This document shows positions 7,096-19,796 of a stretch of 64,000 nt of DNA, piece by piece. The stretch comes from an uncultured cyanobacterium (GTDB lineage Bacteria > Cyanobacteriota > Cyanobacteriia > PCC-6307 > Cyanobiaceae). The position numbers and the translations under genes were made by a program. The notes below the pieces were generated by a model. That model was not told the DNA's origin, ran no database searches, and saw only the letters and a program-made list of their open reading frames with translations. The first letter of the stretch is position 1, and each line of letters starts with the position of its first letter. The DNA lies in assembly GCA_903858015.1 (NCBI GenBank), contig CAIOGZ010000010.1, forward strand, positions 1 through 64,000, given 5' to 3'.

Positions 7096-8658
7096 ATGGG
7101 CTTTTTCATTCGGCTCACCGACGCCATTGCGGAGCGGCAATCGTTGCTTGTAACGGGGCTCGACCCGAATCCCGAGATGCTGCAGAGCTGGGCCCATCGC
7201 CGGGGCCTGGGCGGCCGCTCCTTTCTCTCCCAGGCCCGCCACTGGATCAAGGCGGTGATTGAGGCCACCGCCGAGCATGTCTGCGCCTACAAGCCCAGCC
7301 TGGGCTTTTACCAGGCCCTCGGGCCGGTGGGCCTGGAGTTGCTGCGGGAGGTGCGGGAGCTGGTGCCGCTCGAAATCCCGTTAATCGTGGATGCCAAACA
7401 CGGCGACCTCAACAGCTCCTCGGCCCTTGCCGCCTACCTCTTCCGCGACCTCGGCGCCGATGCCGTCACCCTCTCGCCCCTGGCCGGCCAGGACATCGCC
7501 GCCCCCTTCCTGCTTTATCCGGAAAAGGCCGTGGTGGTCACCTGCCACAGCTCCAACCCCGCGGCGCGCATCCTGCAGCACCACCCGGATGAGGACGATC
7601 CCCTCTACCTCCGCATCGTTAGGGAAAGCCAGTTGTGGGGCACCCCCGAGCAGCTGCTGCTGGAGGTAGGCACCAGCGATCCGGCCGTGCTGGCCCGGGT
7701 GCGGCAGCAGGCTCCCGAACGCTTCTTGATCCTGCGCAGCCTCTGGGGTGAGGAAGACCGGCTCGATGCCCTGCTGGAGGCGGGCCTCAGCCCCTCGGCC
7801 GATGGCCTACTGCTACCCCTGCCCCAGAATCTGCTGGTCGAAGACGACATGGCCGAGCGGGCCGGACGGCTGAAGCGCCGCATCCGGGAGCGCCGCGATG
7901 CCTGGCTGGAGCGGAGCCCCAGCGGAGCCGAATCCTGCAGCCTCTGGCTACCAGAACCGGGCAAGACCGGCGGTGCGGGCCCTGGGGCCGAGGCCGCGGC
8001 CGACCCGTCCAACCCCGGCCGGGCGGCCGAGCCGGCGGGCCAAGGCGGCGAGCCGATGGAGCAGCTGATCCTCGACCTTTATGACATCGGCTGCCTGCTG
8101 TTCGGTGAATACGTGCAGGCCTCCGGGGCGGTGTTCAACTACTACATCGACCTGCGCCAAATCATTTCCGATCCCAACTTGTTCCATCGGGTGCTGCATG
8201 CCTACGGCACCCTTATGCAGCAGCTCCAGTTTGATCGGATCGCCGGTATCCCCTACGGCTCCTTACCCACGGCTACCGGCCTATCGCTGCAGCTGCACAA
8301 ACCGCTGATCTACCCGCGCAAGGAAGTGAAGGCCCACGGCGCCCGCCGGCTGATCGAGGGCGATTTCGAGGAGGGCGATCGCGTCGCGGTGGTCGACGAC
8401 ATCTTGATCACCGGCGGCAGTGTGCTCGAGGGCATCGCCAAATTGGAAAGTTCAGGCCTGGTGGTCCACGACGTGGTGGTGTTCATCGACCATGGCGGCG
8501 ATGCCGACCACAGCGCCAGAAACCGGCTGCTGCAGGCCGGCTACCGCTGCCATGCCGTGCTCGATATCCGCAACATCACGGCCGTGCTGCACCGCGCCGG
8601 CCGGCTCAGCGATAGCCAGGCCGCGGAGTTGGGAACGGGAGTCTTGGCTACTCCCTAA
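7096..8658 (+). CDS. pyrFE: Fused orotidine-5'-phosphate decarboxylase / orotate phosphoribosyltransferase (UMP synthase)
   Basis: One 520-residue protein carries the last two steps of UMP synthesis. Residues 1-300 are an OMP decarboxylase of the group with DAKHGD as the catalytic Lys/Asp motif (near residue 98) and KPSLGFYQ near 71. A Gly/Pro/Ala-rich linker of about 35 residues follows. Residues 321-520 are orotate phosphoribosyltransferase, with the PRPP-binding motif VAVVDDILITGG near 431 and KEVKAHGARRLIEGDF before it. The order (decarboxylase first) is the reverse of the animal and plant enzyme. An ATG inside the linker (8056) could also start a free PyrE, but the continuous frame argues for a true fusion. 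A small hairpin lies just downstream (8685-8701). Confidence 0.92.
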   Translation: MGFFIRLTDAIAERQSLLVTGLDPNPEMLQSWAHRRGLGGRSFLSQARHWIKAVIEATAEHVCAYKPSLGFYQALGPVGLELLREVRELVPLEIPLIVDAKHGDLNSSSALAAYLFRDLGADAVTLSPLAGQDIAAPFLLYPEKAVVVTCHSSNPAARILQHHPDEDDPLYLRIVRESQLWGTPEQLLLEVGTSDPAVLARVRQQAPERFLILRSLWGEEDRLDALLEAGLSPSADGLLLPLPQNLLVEDDMAERAGRLKRRIRERRDAWLERSPSGAESCSLWLPEPGKTGGAGPGAEAAADPSNPGRAAEPAGQGGEPMEQLILDLYDIGCLLFGEYVQASGAVFNYYIDLRQIISDPNLFHRVLHAYGTLMQQLQFDRIAGIPYGSLPTATGLSLQLHKPLIYPRKEVKAHGARRLIEGDFEEGDRVAVVDDILITGGSVLEGIAKLESSGLVVHDVVVFIDHGGDADHSARNRLLQAGYRCHAVLDIRNITAVLHRAGRLSDSQAAELGTGVLATP

Positions 8659-12637: not shown

Positions 12638-13954
12638 ATGCTCCCCCTTCCTTCCCCCCCAATGGGAGCCTCCCCTGACATCCCCTACCACCAGTTCCGC
12701 ACGCTCGTGGCGGCGCCCCGCTCCGCCCGGGCCATCGCGATCGGATCGCGGCCCAGCCCCCTCGCGGCAACGGCGCTGGAGCGCCGTGGGCTGACGGGGC
12801 TGGCGCCCAGTACTCCCAGGGATCGCTACCTGTTCGAGGCCGGCGGCGCCGACGATGACCGGGGTGCGTTGCTCTGCCTGCGGTGCCGCGTCAGCCACGC
12901 GGCAGAGCAGCGGATTGAGGCGCTGTATCGCCAGTTCGGCTCCAGCCACCAGCTCGATCTGATCGACATGGCGGCCACCGTGCTCGACGACCAGGGGGCG
13001 CCGCTGCCCTGGCCCCAAGCCGACCAGCCCCCCGCAGGTCACCGGCCCTTCGCGCTCGAGGTGATCGAGAGCTTCCGCCCCGAGTTGGCGGGCCTCGGCC
13101 AGTGGACACGGGTGCGGGTACAGAGCCACGGCGCCCTGGCGCAGTTGCTGCGCGAGCATGGACTGCTGTTGATCCGCGACTGGGCCCTGCTCGCCCACTC
13201 CAGTCCCACCCGCATGGAGCGGGCCTGGCGGAGCCATGGCCAGGCGGCCCTGGATCTCACAAGCGTGCGGCGGTTGCATCAGAGCTTCCGCCGGCACTAC
13301 AGCCAGGCGATGGCCGATCTCGTCAGCCGGCGCCGGCGCTGGGAGCCCAACATCGCCTTCCTCGAACGCCTCGATCCAGCCGTCGCTGCGGATGTCACCC
13401 GGCGGCGGCTGCAGGCCCTGGCCTCAGCCCTGCGCCGTGAACGGCTTGATCCCCTGACCGCTCCGAAGCAGGAGTACCTCGAAGCGGAGTTGGCCCCTGG
13501 CGACGGGGCCGGCGCCGACGGCCACGCCCCCCCGCCCGAGCGCATCGGCCTGCTGGAACGAACCCTGCGGCGCGCCCTGGCCCAGCAGCTGCCCGCCATG
13601 CTGGCGGCCACCGGAGCCGAGGCAGCGCTAAGGGCCTGTCTGTGGCGCCACTACGCCCTCGGTCTGCGCCAGCGGGAGATCAGCGAAGCCTGCGGCTGCT
13701 GTCAGGCGAAGGTGAGCCGGCGCCTGCAACCCTCCGCCCATGCCGGGGTGATCGCCACCACCGCCCTCACCCAGCTGGCGGGCCAGGAGGGCTTCGAGGC
13801 GGTCGGTGGCTGCCTGAAGGCCACCGAAACCCAGGTCGCCGCCCTGCGCGACTACCTCCTGGGCTGCCCGGTCGCCACCGACCGCCCGCGCCTGGCCCTC
13901 TGGCTGGCGCCCTTGCTGGCTGCCATTCCCCCAGTCCCCCCCCTGTCTCCATGA
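12638..13954 (+). CDS. Sigma-70-like regulatory protein
   Basis: About 438 residues. The C-terminus holds a helix-turn-helix like sigma region 4: CLWRHYALGLRQREISEACG, then KVSRRL. The central part carries RDWALLAHSSPTRMERAW, which recalls the DWALLRKVSKKRL segment of a cyanobacterial sigma-70 family found beside DUF1822 genes (recollection). The ATG at 12638 is a compromise; GTG 12596 and ATG 12662 are also in frame and no ribosome-binding site decides. It overlaps the DUF1822 gene by 4 bp (ATGA), so the two are translationally coupled. I infer that it regulates its own operon; whether it binds RNA polymerase is untested. Confidence 0.65.
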   Translation: MLPLPSPPMGASPDIPYHQFRTLVAAPRSARAIAIGSRPSPLAATALERRGLTGLAPSTPRDRYLFEAGGADDDRGALLCLRCRVSHAAEQRIEALYRQFGSSHQLDLIDMAATVLDDQGAPLPWPQADQPPAGHRPFALEVIESFRPELAGLGQWTRVRVQSHGALAQLLREHGLLLIRDWALLAHSSPTRMERAWRSHGQAALDLTSVRRLHQSFRRHYSQAMADLVSRRRRWEPNIAFLERLDPAVAADVTRRRLQALASALRRERLDPLTAPKQEYLEAELAPGDGAGADGHAPPPERIGLLERTLRRALAQQLPAMLAATGAEAALRACLWRHYALGLRQREISEACGCCQAKVSRRLQPSAHAGVIATTALTQLAGQEGFEAVGGCLKATETQVAALRDYLLGCPVATDRPRLALWLAPLLAAIPPVPPLSP

Positions 13955-15090
13955 CCCCGCCAGCCCCCACCCCTGATCCCCTCGGGGATGATCCCAACGA
14001 TCCCATGGCCCTGCCCCTGCCCCCGGACAGCCTGCTACTGGAGGATGCCGGCCCGATCGGTTGCGCCGCTGACCGTCCTCGGCTGGTCATGCAGGTGCTG
14101 CGGCAGCAGATGGCGGAACTCGGCCTGAACCTGAGTCTGCAGGAAGCCGCAGCGTCCCCCGCAAATCGGGGCTGGAGCGGGGGCGACGGGCTGGTGTTCC
14201 TGCTGCAGGGCTTCCGCGTGCAGCTGGTCTGCGCACCCTTCTGGGCGGACGAGCTGCTGCTGCCGGCGGCGCCATGGCGGCAACCGGGCCAGTCCCCCCA
14301 GCTGCTGCTGGGAGCCTGGGTCGAAGAGGAAAGCGGCGTCGTGCGCCTGCCGGGAGTGCTCACCGCCGCCGAACTGCTGGACCGTTGTGCCGGCTTCCCC
14401 CACGGGCAGGCCCCGCGCACGCTGCCGCTCACCGCTTTCCTGGGAGGACTGGAGCGTCTGTTCCAGCTCGTGCGGCTGCTGAGCCCCGAAGCGCTGACGC
14501 CGCTGCTGACACCAGCTCTGCCATCGCTGCAGACGCCGCTGCCAACGCTGCGGACAGCCGCCGCCGCCCTGGTGGTGATGCGTGATTGGCTCGAGGGCCA
14601 GCTCGGGGAAGCGCTGGCGGCCCTCGGCGCCGAGCTGCTGCCGGCCACGGCCGGGGCGTTCCGCTCAGCCGCGGTCCAGCCGCGGTCCGCGGCCCTCGCC
14701 ACCGTCTCCATCCCGCTGGGTCTAGTGCTGGGCCGAATCCAGTGCGGACCGGGCCGCAGTGGGGCCAGCGAGCGCTTCCAGCTGATCCTCCAGCTCTGCG
14801 GGGAGGGGGACGGAACGGAATGGCTCCAGGTGTGGCTGGAGCCTGATCTGCCTGGCGACCTGCTGCCCCAAAGGCTGGCCCTGAGCGTCGGCGACCAGGT
14901 GATCGACACCGGCCTCGACGGCAGCTCCGAACCCCTCAGCCTGACGGTGCCGGCGGGAAACGATGGAATCGGCATCAGCCTTCGCCACGGCGGCGGTTCG
15001 CAGATCGAGTTGCCGTTTCTTTATTTTTTCCGTGCCGATCTCGCCCAGGGAGAAGCCGATCACGCCCAGGGAGAATCGGGGCACGTCTGA
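13951..15090 (+). CDS. DUF1822 family protein
   Basis: A 379-residue soluble-looking protein of a cyanobacteria-restricted family of unknown function. An acidic Pro-rich N-terminus (about 25 residues) is followed by an LPLPPDSLLLEDAG segment. The middle has the family-like LGAWVEEESGVVRLPGVL and a helical Leu-rich region with VVMRDWLEGQ. The C-terminal 130 residues are beta-rich (SIPLGLVLGRIQCG, then repeated strands ending LRHGGGSQIELPFLYFF). The start ATG overlaps the stop of the sigma-like gene and the CHAT gene begins 11 bp after its stop, so the three form one operon. Its partner could be the CHAT protein; that is inference. Confidence 0.75.
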   Translation: MTPPAPTPDPLGDDPNDPMALPLPPDSLLLEDAGPIGCAADRPRLVMQVLRQQMAELGLNLSLQEAAASPANRGWSGGDGLVFLLQGFRVQLVCAPFWADELLLPAAPWRQPGQSPQLLLGAWVEEESGVVRLPGVLTAAELLDRCAGFPHGQAPRTLPLTAFLGGLERLFQLVRLLSPEALTPLLTPALPSLQTPLPTLRTAAAALVVMRDWLEGQLGEALAALGAELLPATAGAFRSAAVQPRSAALATVSIPLGLVLGRIQCGPGRSGASERFQLILQLCGEGDGTEWLQVWLEPDLPGDLLPQRLALSVGDQVIDTGLDGSSEPLSLTVPAGNDGIGISLRHGGGSQIELPFLYFFRADLAQGEADHAQGESGHV

Positions 15091-15101
15091 TCAACGCTGT
15101 C

Positions 15102-17264
15102 ATGGCCAGCATCGATCTGAACCTGCAGCCCCTGGAGGGCGGCGAAGGGCTGGCGGTCCTGCTGGTCAGCCCGGCCTGCCAGGCCGCCTTCACGACGCCG
15201 ATCCCCACAGCCTTGATCGAGCTGCAAGCGGTCTGGCGCCGCCGCTTCGTCCACCATCACGGCAGCCGCAGCGGCGGGGTGCCGACGGCGGTGCTGGAGG
15301 ACTACAGCAATCAGCTGATCCGGGGTCTGGGGCAATGGTTCGAGCAGGATCGCTGGCTTCCCCTGCACCGTGCCCTGCGGCTGCAGCCGGCCCTGCCCCT
15401 GCGGCTGCGGGTGGCGCCGGAGCTGCGGAAGCTGGAGGAGTTGCCGTGGGAGAGCCTGCCCCTCGATCGGCCCCTCTGGCGGTTGCCGCCGCAGGATCCC
15501 CCCCAGCCGGTGGCGGTGCCGCGGGCGCGCCGGGCGCGGCTGCTGCTGGTGGTGGGCTACGAGCAGGAGCTCGACCTCCAGTCGGAGGTGGAGGAACTGC
15601 AGGATCTCGCCCAGCGGGGCCGGCAGCTGCTGCGCATCCTGCGCGGCCCGGGCGCAGGCTCCCAGGCCCTGCAGGCGGTCCTGGCGGAGGATCCGGGCTG
15701 GGACGCGCTGATCTTCCTGGGCCACGGCGACGGCTCTGCCGACCAGGGGGGACGTCTGCAGCTCGGAGACGGGACCTGGATCTCCGGCGCCAGCCTGGAG
15801 CTGCCGCTGCGGCGGGCGGTGGATCGCGGCCTCAGCCTGATGCTGCTCCACTGCTGCCTGGGCATCGATCTGGCCCATCGCTGCCTGGCGGCCGGAGTCG
15901 CCTGGGTGCAGGTGTTTCGGGAGCGGGTGCCCGATGGGGCCGCCGCCCAGGCCTTCCGGCGGCTGCTACGGGAGCTGCAGGTCGGTCACCCCTTCACCGA
16001 GGCCCAGCGGCGGGCCGCCCAGACCCTCGACCAGCCCGCCTGGAGCGGTTGCCGGGGCCTGCTCAGCGTCTACAGCCATCCCGATGCCCAGCCGTACCGC
16101 TGGCCCCGCCCGAGCCAGACCCTGCAGCGCCGCGAGCTGCTCCTGCTCGGCGGCGCGGCCGGGGTGGCCTACGGCGTCGGCCTCCTGCAGGGCTGGGACC
16201 GCCGCGGCCGCGATGGCAGCCGGGTTTGGCAGATGGCCGCCTACAGGGGCTCGCCGCAGTACCGGCAACTGCTGGTGGGGCAGGTGCCCGAGCGGCTGTC
16301 CCAGCGGCTGGCGACCCTCACGGAAGGGCGCTTCCGCCTGGAATTGGTGGATCGCTCCGCCCTCTCCAGCTCCCACATCCTGCAGCTGGTGAATGACGGT
16401 CGCTCGTTCCAGTGCGGCTATGTCGACAGCTATTACGACCAGGTGCTGCTGCCGTTGGTCTTCGCCAAGGCGGTGCCCTTCGGCCTCAACCCCCGCGAGC
16501 AGACCGCATGGCTGTCGTACAGGCGCCAGGGGGACGATCGCCCCTTCCACCAGACGGTCTATCCCCGCCTGGAGGTGGATGGCGTCAAGCTCGATCAGCT
16601 GCAGTCCATCCCCCTGACCCTCACCGGCGGGCAGATGGGGGGCTGGTTCAAACGGGAGGTGCAGACCCTGGAGGATCTGCGGGGCCTGCGCATGCGTATC
16701 CCCGGCCTCGGCGCCGATGTGCTCAACGCCTTCGGCGTCAAGACCGATTACGACATCAACTCCGGTCGGGTGATTCGCGCCGACCAAATCCTGCCGCGCC
16801 TGCGCGATGGCCGGCTCGATGCGGCGGAATGGATCGGGCCCTACGACGACGAGCTGCTCGGATTGCACACCGCGGCCCGTTTTTACTACTCCCCCGGCTG
16901 GTGGGAACCCTCCACCACCAACGAACTGATGGTCAGCAGCCGGGCCCTGGCGGAGCTGTCACCGGCCCATCGCCTCGCCCTGGAGACCGCCTGCGCCGAA
17001 ACTTATCTGTGGAGTCGGCGCGAGTACGACCTGCTCAACGTCGAGGCCCTGCAGCGGCTGCGGGCCGCCGGGGTGCAACTGCGGCGTTTCAGTCCTGAAC
17101 TCATGCGGGCCTTCGCCCGGGAATCGGAGCGGCTGCTGCAGGAGCAGAAGCGCCAGGATCCCCAGCGCTTCGGCTACGTCTACGCCGAATGGCAGCGATT
17201 TCGCGACCGTATCCGCGACGTGATCGCCGTCACCCAGTTCAGCCCGGCGGATCCGCCGCCCTGA
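15102..17264 (+). CDS. CHAT caspase-like protease domain fused to a TakP-type TRAP solute-binding domain
   Basis: A 720-residue fusion. Residues about 1-335 are a CHAT domain: LEELPWESLPL near 111-120, the catalytic-His strand IFLGHGDGS (H208), and the catalytic-Cys strand LMLLHCCLGID (C251 or C252). Residues 342-363 (LQRRELLLLGGAAGVAYGVG) are one hydrophobic helix after a twin Arg, like a TAT/Sec anchor. Residues 376-710 match TRAP DctP proteins of the TakP (2-oxo-acid) type: QMGGWFKREV, EDLRGLRMRIPGLGADVL, DAAEWIGPYDDELLGLH and YYSPGWWEP in the right order. The predicted topology is cytosolic protease, one membrane pass, periplasmic ligand domain. No TRAP permease subunits are nearby, so I infer a sensor role, not transport. 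Its 3' end overlaps a flotillin gene on the other strand by 26 bp. Confidence 0.8.
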   Translation: MASIDLNLQPLEGGEGLAVLLVSPACQAAFTTPIPTALIELQAVWRRRFVHHHGSRSGGVPTAVLEDYSNQLIRGLGQWFEQDRWLPLHRALRLQPALPLRLRVAPELRKLEELPWESLPLDRPLWRLPPQDPPQPVAVPRARRARLLLVVGYEQELDLQSEVEELQDLAQRGRQLLRILRGPGAGSQALQAVLAEDPGWDALIFLGHGDGSADQGGRLQLGDGTWISGASLELPLRRAVDRGLSLMLLHCCLGIDLAHRCLAAGVAWVQVFRERVPDGAAAQAFRRLLRELQVGHPFTEAQRRAAQTLDQPAWSGCRGLLSVYSHPDAQPYRWPRPSQTLQRRELLLLGGAAGVAYGVGLLQGWDRRGRDGSRVWQMAAYRGSPQYRQLLVGQVPERLSQRLATLTEGRFRLELVDRSALSSSHILQLVNDGRSFQCGYVDSYYDQVLLPLVFAKAVPFGLNPREQTAWLSYRRQGDDRPFHQTVYPRLEVDGVKLDQLQSIPLTLTGGQMGGWFKREVQTLEDLRGLRMRIPGLGADVLNAFGVKTDYDINSGRVIRADQILPRLRDGRLDAAEWIGPYDDELLGLHTAARFYYSPGWWEPSTTNELMVSSRALAELSPAHRLALETACAETYLWSRREYDLLNVEALQRLRAAGVQLRRFSPELMRAFARESERLLQEQKRQDPQRFGYVYAEWQRFRDRIRDVIAVTQFSPADPPP

Positions 17265-18450
17265 GCCAGCGGCCCAGGTCGAGGTCGGTGGCGGCCTGCA
17301 ACCGGGCCAGCAGGGTGGGCAGGCTGATCTCGCTGCCCTCGCCCTCGCCGATCAGGCGCAGCTCCTCCACCTGCAGTGTCGGCACCGCCTGGCGCAGCAG
17401 GGCGAGCAGCGGCTGCAGCCGCTGCATCAGGTACACGGTGCGGGCATCGGGGCCGGCCGCCAGCAACGAGTCGATCAGCGCCCGCAGGGCCTCCGTCTGG
17501 GCATCCCCCTCGGCGCGAATTCCGGCGGCACCGGCGCGGGCGATCGCCATCGCCTCCTGGCAGGCCGCTTCGGCCGGAGCCACCACATCGGCTTGCAGCT
17601 GCAGCGCGATGCTTTCAATCCGAGCCTGCTGCAACGGCAGCTCCGCTTCGGTCCGCGATCGCTCGCCCGCGGTTCGGGCCTCTGCCTCGGCGACCAGGGC
17701 CTGCTGGCGTGTGCCAGCCTCCTGGATGCGGCGGTTGGCCTCGGCGCGGGCCAACGCCTCATCGCGGCCGAACTGCACCAGCCGCGTGGTCTTCTCCTGT
17801 TCCACCGTTTCGATGCGGGCCTCGGCCCGCGCCTCCGCCTCGGCGATCCGAGATTGGCGCAGCAACTCCACCTGTTGGGGCCTGCCCAGGGAGTCGAGAT
17901 AGCGCACGTCATCGCGGATCGAGGTGATCTGCAGGCTGTCGAGTTCGAGGCCGAGCTGGCTCAGGTCGTCCTCCGCCTCTTCCAACAGGGCCCTGGAGAA
18001 GGCTTCCGTATCGGCATTCACCTGTTCCGGAGTGAGGGTGGAGAGCACACCGCGCAGATTGCTTTCCAGCGTCACCCCAGCCAGGGCGCTCACCTCCCCC
18101 CGACTGCGGTCGAGCAGACGTTCCACGGCGGCGTGGATCGTCGGTTCATGCCCGGCGATCTTGACGTTGGCCACCGCCTCGACGCTGATGCGGATGCCGC
18201 TGCGGGTGAGGGCGTTGGTCACGCTGATGGCGATGTTGAGGTTGCCGAGATCGATCGTTCTGATCTCTTCCACCAGGGGCATCAGCAGGGTGCTGCCTCC
18301 CTTGAGCAGGCGGTAACCGCGACGGCCGGGCAGGCCGTAGATCACCAGGGCCTGGTTCGGCTGGCAGACGGCCAGCAGGCGGCCCAGGGCAGCGCGGAAG
18401 ACCAGCAGGCCGCCGCCGCTCAGGAGCAGCAGTGCGAGGAAAGGAGTCAT
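17239..18450 (-). CDS. Flotillin/SPFH-domain membrane protein (second of a pair)
   Basis: A 403-residue SPFH (band 7) protein. Residues 4-25 are a membrane segment (FLALLLLSGGGLLVFRAALG). The SPFH core follows, with VISVEAVANVKI-like strands (RISVEAVANVKIAG), SNLRGVLSTLTPEQVNAD and LQITSIRDD. Residues 230-330 are an Ala/Glu/Arg-rich coiled coil (RIAEAEARAEARIETVEQEK, then EANRRIQEAG), as in flotillins, and ADVVAPAEA marks the family tail. Such proteins organise membrane microdomains. The ATG at 18450 overlaps the stop of the upstream flotillin (ATGA). The 3' end overlaps the CHAT gene, so transcription of one could affect the other. Confidence 0.85.
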   Translation of the reverse strand: MTPFLALLLLSGGGLLVFRAALGRLLAVCQPNQALVIYGLPGRRGYRLLKGGSTLLMPLVEEIRTIDLGNLNIAISVTNALTRSGIRISVEAVANVKIAGHEPTIHAAVERLLDRSRGEVSALAGVTLESNLRGVLSTLTPEQVNADTEAFSRALLEEAEDDLSQLGLELDSLQITSIRDDVRYLDSLGRPQQVELLRQSRIAEAEARAEARIETVEQEKTTRLVQFGRDEALARAEANRRIQEAGTRQQALVAEAEARTAGERSRTEAELPLQQARIESIALQLQADVVAPAEAACQEAMAIARAGAAGIRAEGDAQTEALRALIDSLLAAGPDARTVYLMQRLQPLLALLRQAVPTLQVEELRLIGEGEGSEISLPTLLARLQAATDLDLGRWLRAADPPG

Positions 18451-19796
18451 GGCCGGGAAGGGCGATGGGGATTGAGGGCCTGAAGCACGTCGATGCCGAC
18501 GATGTCGCGCACCTGATCGAAAAAGTTGCGCATCACGGCTGGATGGAGGCCGGCCAGATTCGCCAGAGCGACCGGGTTGCCGGTTTCGAGCGCGGTGATG
18601 CGGCCCAGTTGCAGTTGGCCGGCCAGGGCTGCGGCCTCGCCCAGCACCGTCTCGAGCTGCTGCAGCAGAAAAATGGATCCGGCCTGATCCCCCGCCGCTC
18701 GCCAGAGCGCCGCGAGCTGGTCGTTGATGGCGGCGCTGGCCAGCGCGTCTTCGATCGTGGCGGCGGCGGCGCCGCGGCAGCGCCATTCCTCCGCCTGCTC
18801 CCGGGCCCGGGCCGGCAGCACCACATCGGCCTCCAGGCGCAGCCGCTCCAGCTCGGAGCGCAGGGCCTGGAGAGCCTTCTCGGCGCGGGCGCGGGCCTCC
18901 TCCGCCACCGCATCCACCCGTTCCTCCGCGGAGCGCACCTGCTGATCGAGGCGGGCCCGGACCGTGCGCAGCCCGTTGCCGCGTTCCTCCACCACCGTGC
19001 GGGCGGTGGTGGCCGCCACCTCGGCCCGCTCCTCGGCCCGGGCCTCCCGCTTATCGGCATCGCCGAACCCTTCGGCCTCGGCCTTCGCCGCGTCCCGCAG
19101 CACCTCCGCCAGGCGGGCGCGGCCGAGGGAATCGAGGTAATCAACCCCATCACTCACCCGCAGAATCTTGAAGGTGTCGATCTGCAGCCCGATCTTGGTG
19201 ATGTCCGGTCGGGTGATCTCCAGCACCTTGTCCGCAAAGCGCAGGCGGTCTTCGTTGACCTGCTCCGGGGTGAGGCCGGCCACCATCACCCGCAGGTGGC
19301 CCTCAAGGGTGCGAACGGCCACCTCCTGCATGGCGGCGGAGTCGTGCTCCAGAAAGCGTTCGATCGCGTTGCCCACACAATCGCGATCGGTGCTGATCTT
19401 GACGGTGGCGATCGCCTCCACATCGATCGGGGTGCCACCGAGGGCGTAGGCCTTCACCACCTGAATCGGCACGGGCTGGGTGCGCACATCCATCCAGCTG
19501 CAGCGCTCCAGCCAAGGCAGCACCAGCGACCGACCGCCGTGCACAACCCGATAGCCGACGCTTTGCCCATCGCCCCGGCGATGGGCGCGACCGGCGATCA
19601 CCAGGATCTGATCGGGGCGGCAGTTGGGGATGAGGCGGCGGCAGGTGCCGAGCAGCAGTCCCAGCCCGAGGACGGTGAGCAAGGGGATCTCGAACCCCGA
19701 GCCGCTGGGCAGGGACCAGGGCGGCGGCTCGGTTGGCGACGGCGCGGCGCGGGTCGTGGTCAACAGCACGGGCGGGGTGGCTGGAATCGGCGTCAT
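18447..19796 (-). CDS. Flotillin/SPFH-domain membrane protein (first of a pair)
   Basis: A 449-residue protein with the same layout as its neighbour: a Pro/Thr-rich N-terminus, a membrane helix near residues 36-52 (IPLLTVLGLGLLLG), an SPFH domain (PIDVEAIATVKIS; EGHLRVMVAGLTPEQVNEDR; DTFKILRVSDG) and a long charged coiled coil (about 225-330, including AEGFGDADKREARAEERAEV). LEADVVLPARAREQAEEW ends the coil as in flotillins. The two paralogues overlap by 4 bp and probably form hetero-oligomers; pairing is inferred from the operon. The upstream OB-fold gene overlaps its start by 4 bp. Confidence 0.85.
   Translation of the reverse strand: MTPIPATPPVLLTTTRAAPSPTEPPPWSLPSGSGFEIPLLTVLGLGLLLGTCRRLIPNCRPDQILVIAGRAHRRGDGQSVGYRVVHGGRSLVLPWLERCSWMDVRTQPVPIQVVKAYALGGTPIDVEAIATVKISTDRDCVGNAIERFLEHDSAAMQEVAVRTLEGHLRVMVAGLTPEQVNEDRLRFADKVLEITRPDITKIGLQIDTFKILRVSDGVDYLDSLGRARLAEVLRDAAKAEAEGFGDADKREARAEERAEVAATTARTVVEERGNGLRTVRARLDQQVRSAEERVDAVAEEARARAEKALQALRSELERLRLEADVVLPARAREQAEEWRCRGAAAATIEDALASAAINDQLAALWRAAGDQAGSIFLLQQLETVLGEAAALAGQLQLGRITALETGNPVALANLAGLHPAVMRNFFDQVRDIVGIDVLQALNPHRPSRP

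Follow-up and report, generated by a model that had tools for sequence, protein, structure and literature searches.

A CHAT–TakP fusion as a candidate keto-acid-gated receptor-protease of cyanobacteria

Introduction

A 64,000-nucleotide stretch of DNA from an uncultured cyanobacterium of the Cyanobiaceae, here called the window, carries a gene in which a CHAT caspase-like domain is followed by a TRAP solute-binding domain of the TakP type. What could a protein that joins a protease to a transporter-type receptor do, and how did it arise? An earlier note on this DNA suggested that an organic anion bound outside the cell switches the protease inside, and took the pairing to be undescribed.

Results

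Architecture and occurrence of the fusion

The frame list and its translation show a single open frame of 720 codons, with no stop, at positions 15102–17264 of the plus strand. The gene stands third in an operon that comprises the following features.

12662..13954, plus strand: sigma-like regulator gene, opening the operon; start placed by reference to L031, a related contig
13951..15090, plus strand: DUF1822-like gene, second of the operon; assigned by family profile against the DUF1822 profile
15102..17264, plus strand: CHAT–TakP fusion protein, 720 amino acids, third gene of the operon
15102..15530, plus strand: N-terminal domain, residues 1–143; putative counterpart of the "EACC2" region of Kaur et al. 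by profile match
15546..16103, plus strand: CHAT caspase-like domain, residues 149–334; Pfam PF12770, E 3.6e-8, over the curated cut-off
15723–15725, plus strand: H208, the CHAT histidine
15855–15857, plus strand: C252, the CHAT cysteine
16128..16211, plus strand: twin-Arg signal-anchor-like helix, residues 343–370; low-confidence model helix, twin Arg kept
16221..17246, plus strand: TakP-type TRAP solute-binding domain, residues 374–715; Pfam PF03480 and structural match to 7ug8

The DctP match (PF03480) covers residues 394–682 with an E-value of 2.1e-24 and, like that of CHAT, exceeds the curated cut-off. The two domains are therefore joined in one protein, as the earlier note had claimed.

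The full-length fusion is found in four other cyanobacterial contigs, L031, L032, L033, and L034, at 82, 78, 68, and 55% identity, respectively. The four are among 20 loci obtained from a species-genome collection by peptide patterns and then tblastn, a pattern-first scan that may miss distant relatives of the fusion. TakP fusions are rare, and a match across residues 1–720 is present in one of 151 genomes of the window's family, the window's own. The four further CHAT and DctP fusions show that the two halves are not always separate in homologs. A frame error, set beforehand as a refutation of the architecture, and a chimeric contig are ruled out, as the fusion is intact in all four contigs. 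This conservation, together with a whole-gene dN/dS of 0.23 between the window and L031, excludes a frame error in practice.

Both halves appear to be under purifying selection in the closest pairs. Against L031, the CHAT half has a dN/dS of 0.25 and the TakP half one of 0.22; against L034 the values are 0.53 and 0.41. The linker of about 33 codons gives 1.29 against L033 and 1.22 against L034, indicating fast change in distant pairs. The halves of L033 (1628–3796) differ in age, with a dS from the window of 0.43 for CHAT and 1.30 for TakP, a possible trace of recombination close to the linker.

Two SPFH/Band_7 genes (window 17239–19796, minus strand) are convergent to the fusion and also lie beside it in L031, L032, and L033. 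Blastp found no homolog in L034 or the other loci compared, and the pair are thus probably only neighbors. Elsewhere in the window, a 520-residue frame at 7096–8658 resembles, by eye, orotidine-5'-phosphate decarboxylase joined to a phosphoribosyltransferase.

An AlphaFold model of the whole fusion, built from 18 aligned sequences, has a mean pLDDT of 67.0. The TakP half is modeled well, the CHAT core partly, and the N-terminal domain poorly. The CHAT catalytic loops and the N-terminal domain are of low confidence.

The N-terminal and CHAT domains

With a CHAT-half profile, matches at E ≤1e-10 were obtained in 100 of the 386 cyanobacterial genomes sampled. Sixty relatives were taken for comparison, one well-scoring match each from 60 of 96 matching genomes (excluding the four close genomes G000, G030, G090, and G126), and form a non-random sample.

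The first 140 residues match the N-termini of DUF1822-linked CHAT proteins (97.0%, E 1.2e-10) in a profile comparison. The N-terminal 143 residues of the window protein contain no Pfam family over the cut-off.

All 13 of 13 close CHAT halves keep H208 and C252 without change. An aligned His/Cys pair is also present in 60 of 60 wider relatives, where the stretch with His/Cys was taken for proteins with several matched stretches. The neighboring C251 is kept in four of five fusions and replaced by Ser in the fifth. Of the catalytic residues proposed in the earlier note, H208 and C251 or C252, the histidine and C252 stand; C251 is ruled out as the conserved cysteine. The conservation of the pair argues for an active protease without proving it.

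The closest solved CHAT structure by profile is 8tl0 (E 8.2e-6). In a fold search with the fusion model, TakP fills the match lists (rows spanning residues 372–713), and the search does not inform the CHAT fold.

The TakP domain and its pocket

The closest solved relatives of the TakP half are 7ug8 (E 2.9e-50), then 4yzz/4yic, and then 2hzk/2hzl (E 6.3e-42). Structural alignment yields a Z score of 34.2 for 7ug8 (rmsd 2.6, 320 aligned) and 33.7 for 2hzk (rmsd 3.3, 318 aligned). In the 7ug8 structure, a Synechococcus CC9311 solute receptor holds alpha-ketovalerate and calcium.

Gonin et al. (2007; 2hzk/2hzl) described the residues of TakP that hold sodium-pyruvate as Tyr100, Gln156, Arg177, Glu214, Trp215 (by its main chain), and Glu240. 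They reported a Kd of about 0.26 uM for pyruvate and no binding of alpha-ketoglutarate by the Rhodobacter protein, which is a helix-swapped dimer. The predicted pocket of the fusion, mapped by hand through the alignment to TakP, is composed of Y445, Q511, R532, E576, W577, and E602. All six residues are identical in five of five CHAT–TakP fusions, answering the question raised earlier of whether the ligand residues are kept, and in 10 of 10 fusion-type TakP domains. As regards a helix-swapped dimer, the monomer model of the fusion contains the C-terminal helices.

The window contains no DctQ/DctM permease, as noted earlier. Its genome yields a single DctQ and a single DctM match, both on contig C16 beside a stand-alone TakP. 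The genome possesses a complete separate TakPQM (DctP, DctQ, and DctM), and the transporter need not rely on the fused TakP as its sole receptor.

TakP is also fused to other domains. In a Calothrix MAG (L042:4463–6691), it follows a Ser/Thr kinase (Pkinase E 1e-31, DctP E 3.8e-38), with a twin Arg at the boundary; this arrangement, with TakP the presumed outer part of a different signaling enzyme, fits a sensor use of TakP. In records from Microcystis, Okeania, Anabaena, and Symploca (L035:5569–7134, L036:3836–5344, L037:5506–7116, and L041:5569–7149), it follows a helical N-terminal domain of about 125–165 residues in which no Pfam family exceeds the cut-off. An 848-residue frame with TakP in L059 (G072) was rejected as a fusion: its first ~500 residues are without a Pfam match and, by eye, resemble an out-of-frame translation of a neighbor.

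The membrane anchor

The earlier note placed one hydrophobic helix after a twin Arg between the two halves. The twin Arg holds and the sequence supports a membrane step, but the helix is weakly hydrophobic and of low confidence in the model; the window protein contains no 19-residue stretch over the hydrophobicity threshold. The CHASE2-type relatives have clear membrane segments.

Comparison with stand-alone TakPs suggests where the helix comes from. In a hand-chosen subset of 19, each carries a twin Arg close to its start and a Cys between residues 22 and 37, mostly in an LSSC-, LSAC-, or LAAC-like context. The TakP fusions, which include the kinase protein L042 and the four proteins with the other N-terminal domain, keep the twin Arg at the boundary but have no Cys in the following 36 residues (10 of 10). 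The helix that follows it resembles a Tat signal inherited from an ancestral TakP lipoprotein. With the lipobox Cys lost, the anchor would be left uncleaved. These features would be best explained by in-frame fusion of an entire TakP gene together with its signal, the lipoprotein cleavage site being lost. Such a fusion predicts that the twin Arg faces the cytoplasm and that TakP lies outside.

The operon

The partners of the fusion, at 12662–13954 and 13951–15090, are absent from the earlier note. Their genes overlap by ATGA, and the fusion starts 11 bases past the DUF1822-like stop. The fusions of L031 and L032 have both genes conserved next to them. In L033 both are present but the contig ends within the sigma-like gene, and in L034 it ends within the DUF1822-like gene.

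The sigma-like protein has a weak match to Sigma70_r4_2 (E 0.015, under the Pfam cut-off), and its family profile gives a weak region-4 match to the SigF region-4 structure (E 0.0028). Its structure model, from four sequences, is poor (mean pLDDT 45.9). Homologs occupy the same position in other CHAT loci, with 34–38% identity to the counterparts at CHASE2-type loci of the family and 20–25% to those at other cyanobacterial CHAT loci. A homolog lies upstream in only 15 of the 60 relatives by profile, nine of these 15 belonging to the profile used.

A single-sequence scan gave no Pfam match for the DUF1822-like protein of the window. Its family profile matches the DUF1822 profile (99.1%, E 4.6e-19), and one member of the set matches PF08852 directly (E 7.4e-24). 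DUF1822 is found upstream in 42 of the 60 relatives, 40 within 700 bases and two over 3 kb away, with 12 of the 42 matches being members of the profile used. By Pfam, 45 of 104 neighbor proteins are DUF1822; the scan took no more than two same-strand frames of 200 residues or longer within 2 kb upstream (102 frames), together with the two window genes. Against the PDB, the DUF1822 profile has no match under E 0.15.

Other sensors in the same slot

The CHAT half without TakP is present in eight other genomes of the window's family (151 scanned). Five of the eight were scanned with Pfam, leaving out L053, L054, and L056. CHASE2 is over the cut-off in L052 and L058, under it in L051, and without a match in L055 and L057, which have a similar length and C-terminal membrane segments. 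In L058, Pfam found CHASE2 and not CHAT.

Among the 60 wider relatives, the remainder of the protein matches CHASE2, a receptor domain, in 38, Peripla_BP_6 in five, nSTAND1 in five, pentapeptides in five, and WD40 in four. Peripla_BP_6 occurs in L073, L074, L082, L091, and L096, and was confirmed on the whole proteins of L073 and L082. PBP_like_2 occurs in two relatives, L094 and L097 (E 5e-29 and 1e-27). The genes adjoining L073 and L094 are DUF1822. These Peripla_BP_6 and PBP_like_2 proteins are other candidate ligand-gated proteases. Three solute-binding folds of different Pfam families, TakP, Peripla_BP_6, and PBP_like_2, thus occupy the same slot.

In a maximum-likelihood tree built from 68 CHAT halves, a single clade (100/99) holds all five TakP fusions and falls within a family clade of 13 rows (100/100). 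Support is 93/86 at the fork uniting them with L052 and 99/94 at the wider fork. The Peripla_BP_6 rows may have one origin or several. The root was placed at the midpoint for drawing, and five of the 60 relatives with a C-terminal CHAT were omitted. The TakP clade is nested among CHASE2-type relatives, suggesting that TakP replaced CHASE2 once while the operon was retained. A single replacement in place is the plain reading of the tree. The idea of an undescribed stand-alone pairing of CHAT with TakP is not supported: the fusion is rather a member, with its sensor swapped, of a large CHAT family of cyanobacteria with interchangeable C-terminal domains and DUF1822 and sigma-like neighbors.

Discussion

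Proposed mechanism and its alternatives

As far as sequence can tell, a ligand-gated protease appears the likeliest mechanism. We consider it probable that the fusion is a one-pass receptor-protease of the EACC2/DUF1822/sigma type, in which the binding of a keto acid outside is transmitted to the protease and the sigma-like regulator within the cell, and in which CHASE2 was swapped once for a whole TakP. The TakP domain would lie outside the cytoplasmic membrane as a dimer like that of Rhodobacter TakP, and would close upon binding a short 2-oxo acid and a cation. Closure could shift the paired anchors and switch on the CHAT domains. The protease would then cut itself or the DUF1822 protein, and cleavage would activate the sigma-like regulator. 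The gene order and the precedent of a CHAT protease that cuts a sigma-factor inhibitor (Strecker et al.) make DUF1822 the candidate for the cleaved inhibitor. The output would be transcription, perhaps for the uptake or use of the same acids.

The same features may be read in other ways. The ligand might trigger a suicidal protease, rather than gene control. Kaur et al. (PMC8195603) class EACC2 with conflict and apoptosis-like systems, a review proposes ligand-gated membrane caspase homologs in cyanobacterial cell death, and some relatives carry nSTAND1 or WD40 parts; a pocket for common metabolites and a sigma-like partner nevertheless fit regulation better, and we regard such a death switch as unlikely. 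About as unlikely is a sensor of keto acids inside the cell. The weak hydrophobicity of the helix and the fast change of the linker would be in keeping with a helix that does not insert, but all ten fusions keep the twin Arg at the position of the Tat signal in stand-alone TakPs, and the CHASE2 versions have clear membrane segments.

A role in transport seems somewhat more improbable still. The fused TakP could feed the TakQM encoded elsewhere in the genome, with CHAT only regulating or reporting transport, as a fully conserved pocket and a genome with one DctM and one DctQ would allow. That permease, however, is clustered with a TakP gene of its own, whereas the fused gene is on another contig in a regulatory operon, and the TakP slot otherwise holds CHASE2, itself no transporter part. 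A functionless fusion retained by chance would agree with the rarity of the protein, but it is very improbable given its full length at 55–82% identity in four contigs, dN/dS well under 1, and the retention of catalytic and pocket residues. A receptor-protease gated by keto acids remains our preferred reading.

A wider claim is plausible, though we do not yet favor it. Cyanobacteria may repeatedly have recruited transporter-type binding proteins (TakP, Peripla_BP_6, and PBP_like_2) to sense, outside the cell, for a membrane-bound CHAT protease in control of a dedicated sigma-like factor via DUF1822. The window would then hold the cation-dependent, keto-acid-gated version, derived from a Tat lipoprotein that was fused in frame and lost its cleavage site.

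The signals of EACC2 systems appear unknown, as a literature search for EACC2 gave no other related work beyond Kaur et al. The CHAT-half family is widespread, with matches in 100 of the 386 cyanobacterial genomes sampled. For CHASE2, its commonest sensor, we know of no solved ligand. The pocket chemistry of TakP is solved and points directly to short 2-oxo acids with Na+ or Ca2+ as the candidate ligand, with cleavage and transcription as the read-out. Through the TakP version, a signaling system with unknown signals gains a testable candidate ligand. If true, it would further offer a clear example of a transporter component turned into the outer domain of a protease receptor.

Comparison with known systems

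EACC2 systems were predicted from sequence in 2021 by Kaur, Iyer, Burroughs, and Aravind (PMC8195603), who place them among conflict and apoptosis-like systems and propose self-cleavage for the EACC2-caspase. Their EACC2-caspase systems and the fusion, both cyanobacterial, share a caspase-like domain, a variable C-terminal domain such as CHASE2, accompanied by membrane helices where it is extracellular, and putatively the constant N-terminal domain. The operons share a DUF1822 neighbor and perhaps a sigma-type neighbor, which is ECF there and a weak region-4 match here. The fusion thus has the His/Cys caspase-like domain, the DUF1822 neighbor, and the variable C-terminal domain of EACC2 systems; the membrane step is read from the sequence. 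The main text of Kaur et al. makes no mention of a TRAP, DctP, SBP, or PBP domain, although its "several small-molecule-binding domains" may cover binding-protein folds. The literature searched, which included the main text of that paper, contained neither the TakP sensor nor its one origin by CHASE2 replacement nor the proposed conversion of a Tat signal into an anchor.

The fusion shares with the TakP receptors (2hzk/2hzl and 7ug8) the fold, at Z scores of 33–34, and the six sodium-pyruvate residues. It differs in being borne on a protease, in lacking the lipobox Cys that 19 of 19 stand-alones have, and in having no adjoining permease genes. In the Csx29/Csx30 CASP system, a CHAT protease cuts a sigma-factor inhibitor (Strecker et al. 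2022, PMC10028731). A CHAT protease is linked to a sigma factor in both cases, but CASP is activated by target RNA and not by an outside ligand; a distant relation of DUF1822 to Csx30 might escape the PDB search.

Cyanobacterial metacaspases with ANF_receptor or CHASE2 domains were described by Asplund-Samuelsson et al. (2012, PMC3501461). They likewise combine a caspase-like domain with an extracellular receptor domain, and a receptor-outside topology was proposed for the CHASE2 case. As described there, they differ in being single cases with other receptor folds and no TakP. A 2020 review proposes ligand-triggered membrane orthocaspases, which are caspase homologs, in cyanobacterial cell death. 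The kind of system is already known as a prediction, and the TakP version is an addition to it. Over the EACC2 systems of Kaur et al., it adds the TakP sensor, the putative Tat-derived anchor, and the apparent replacement of CHASE2 by TakP.
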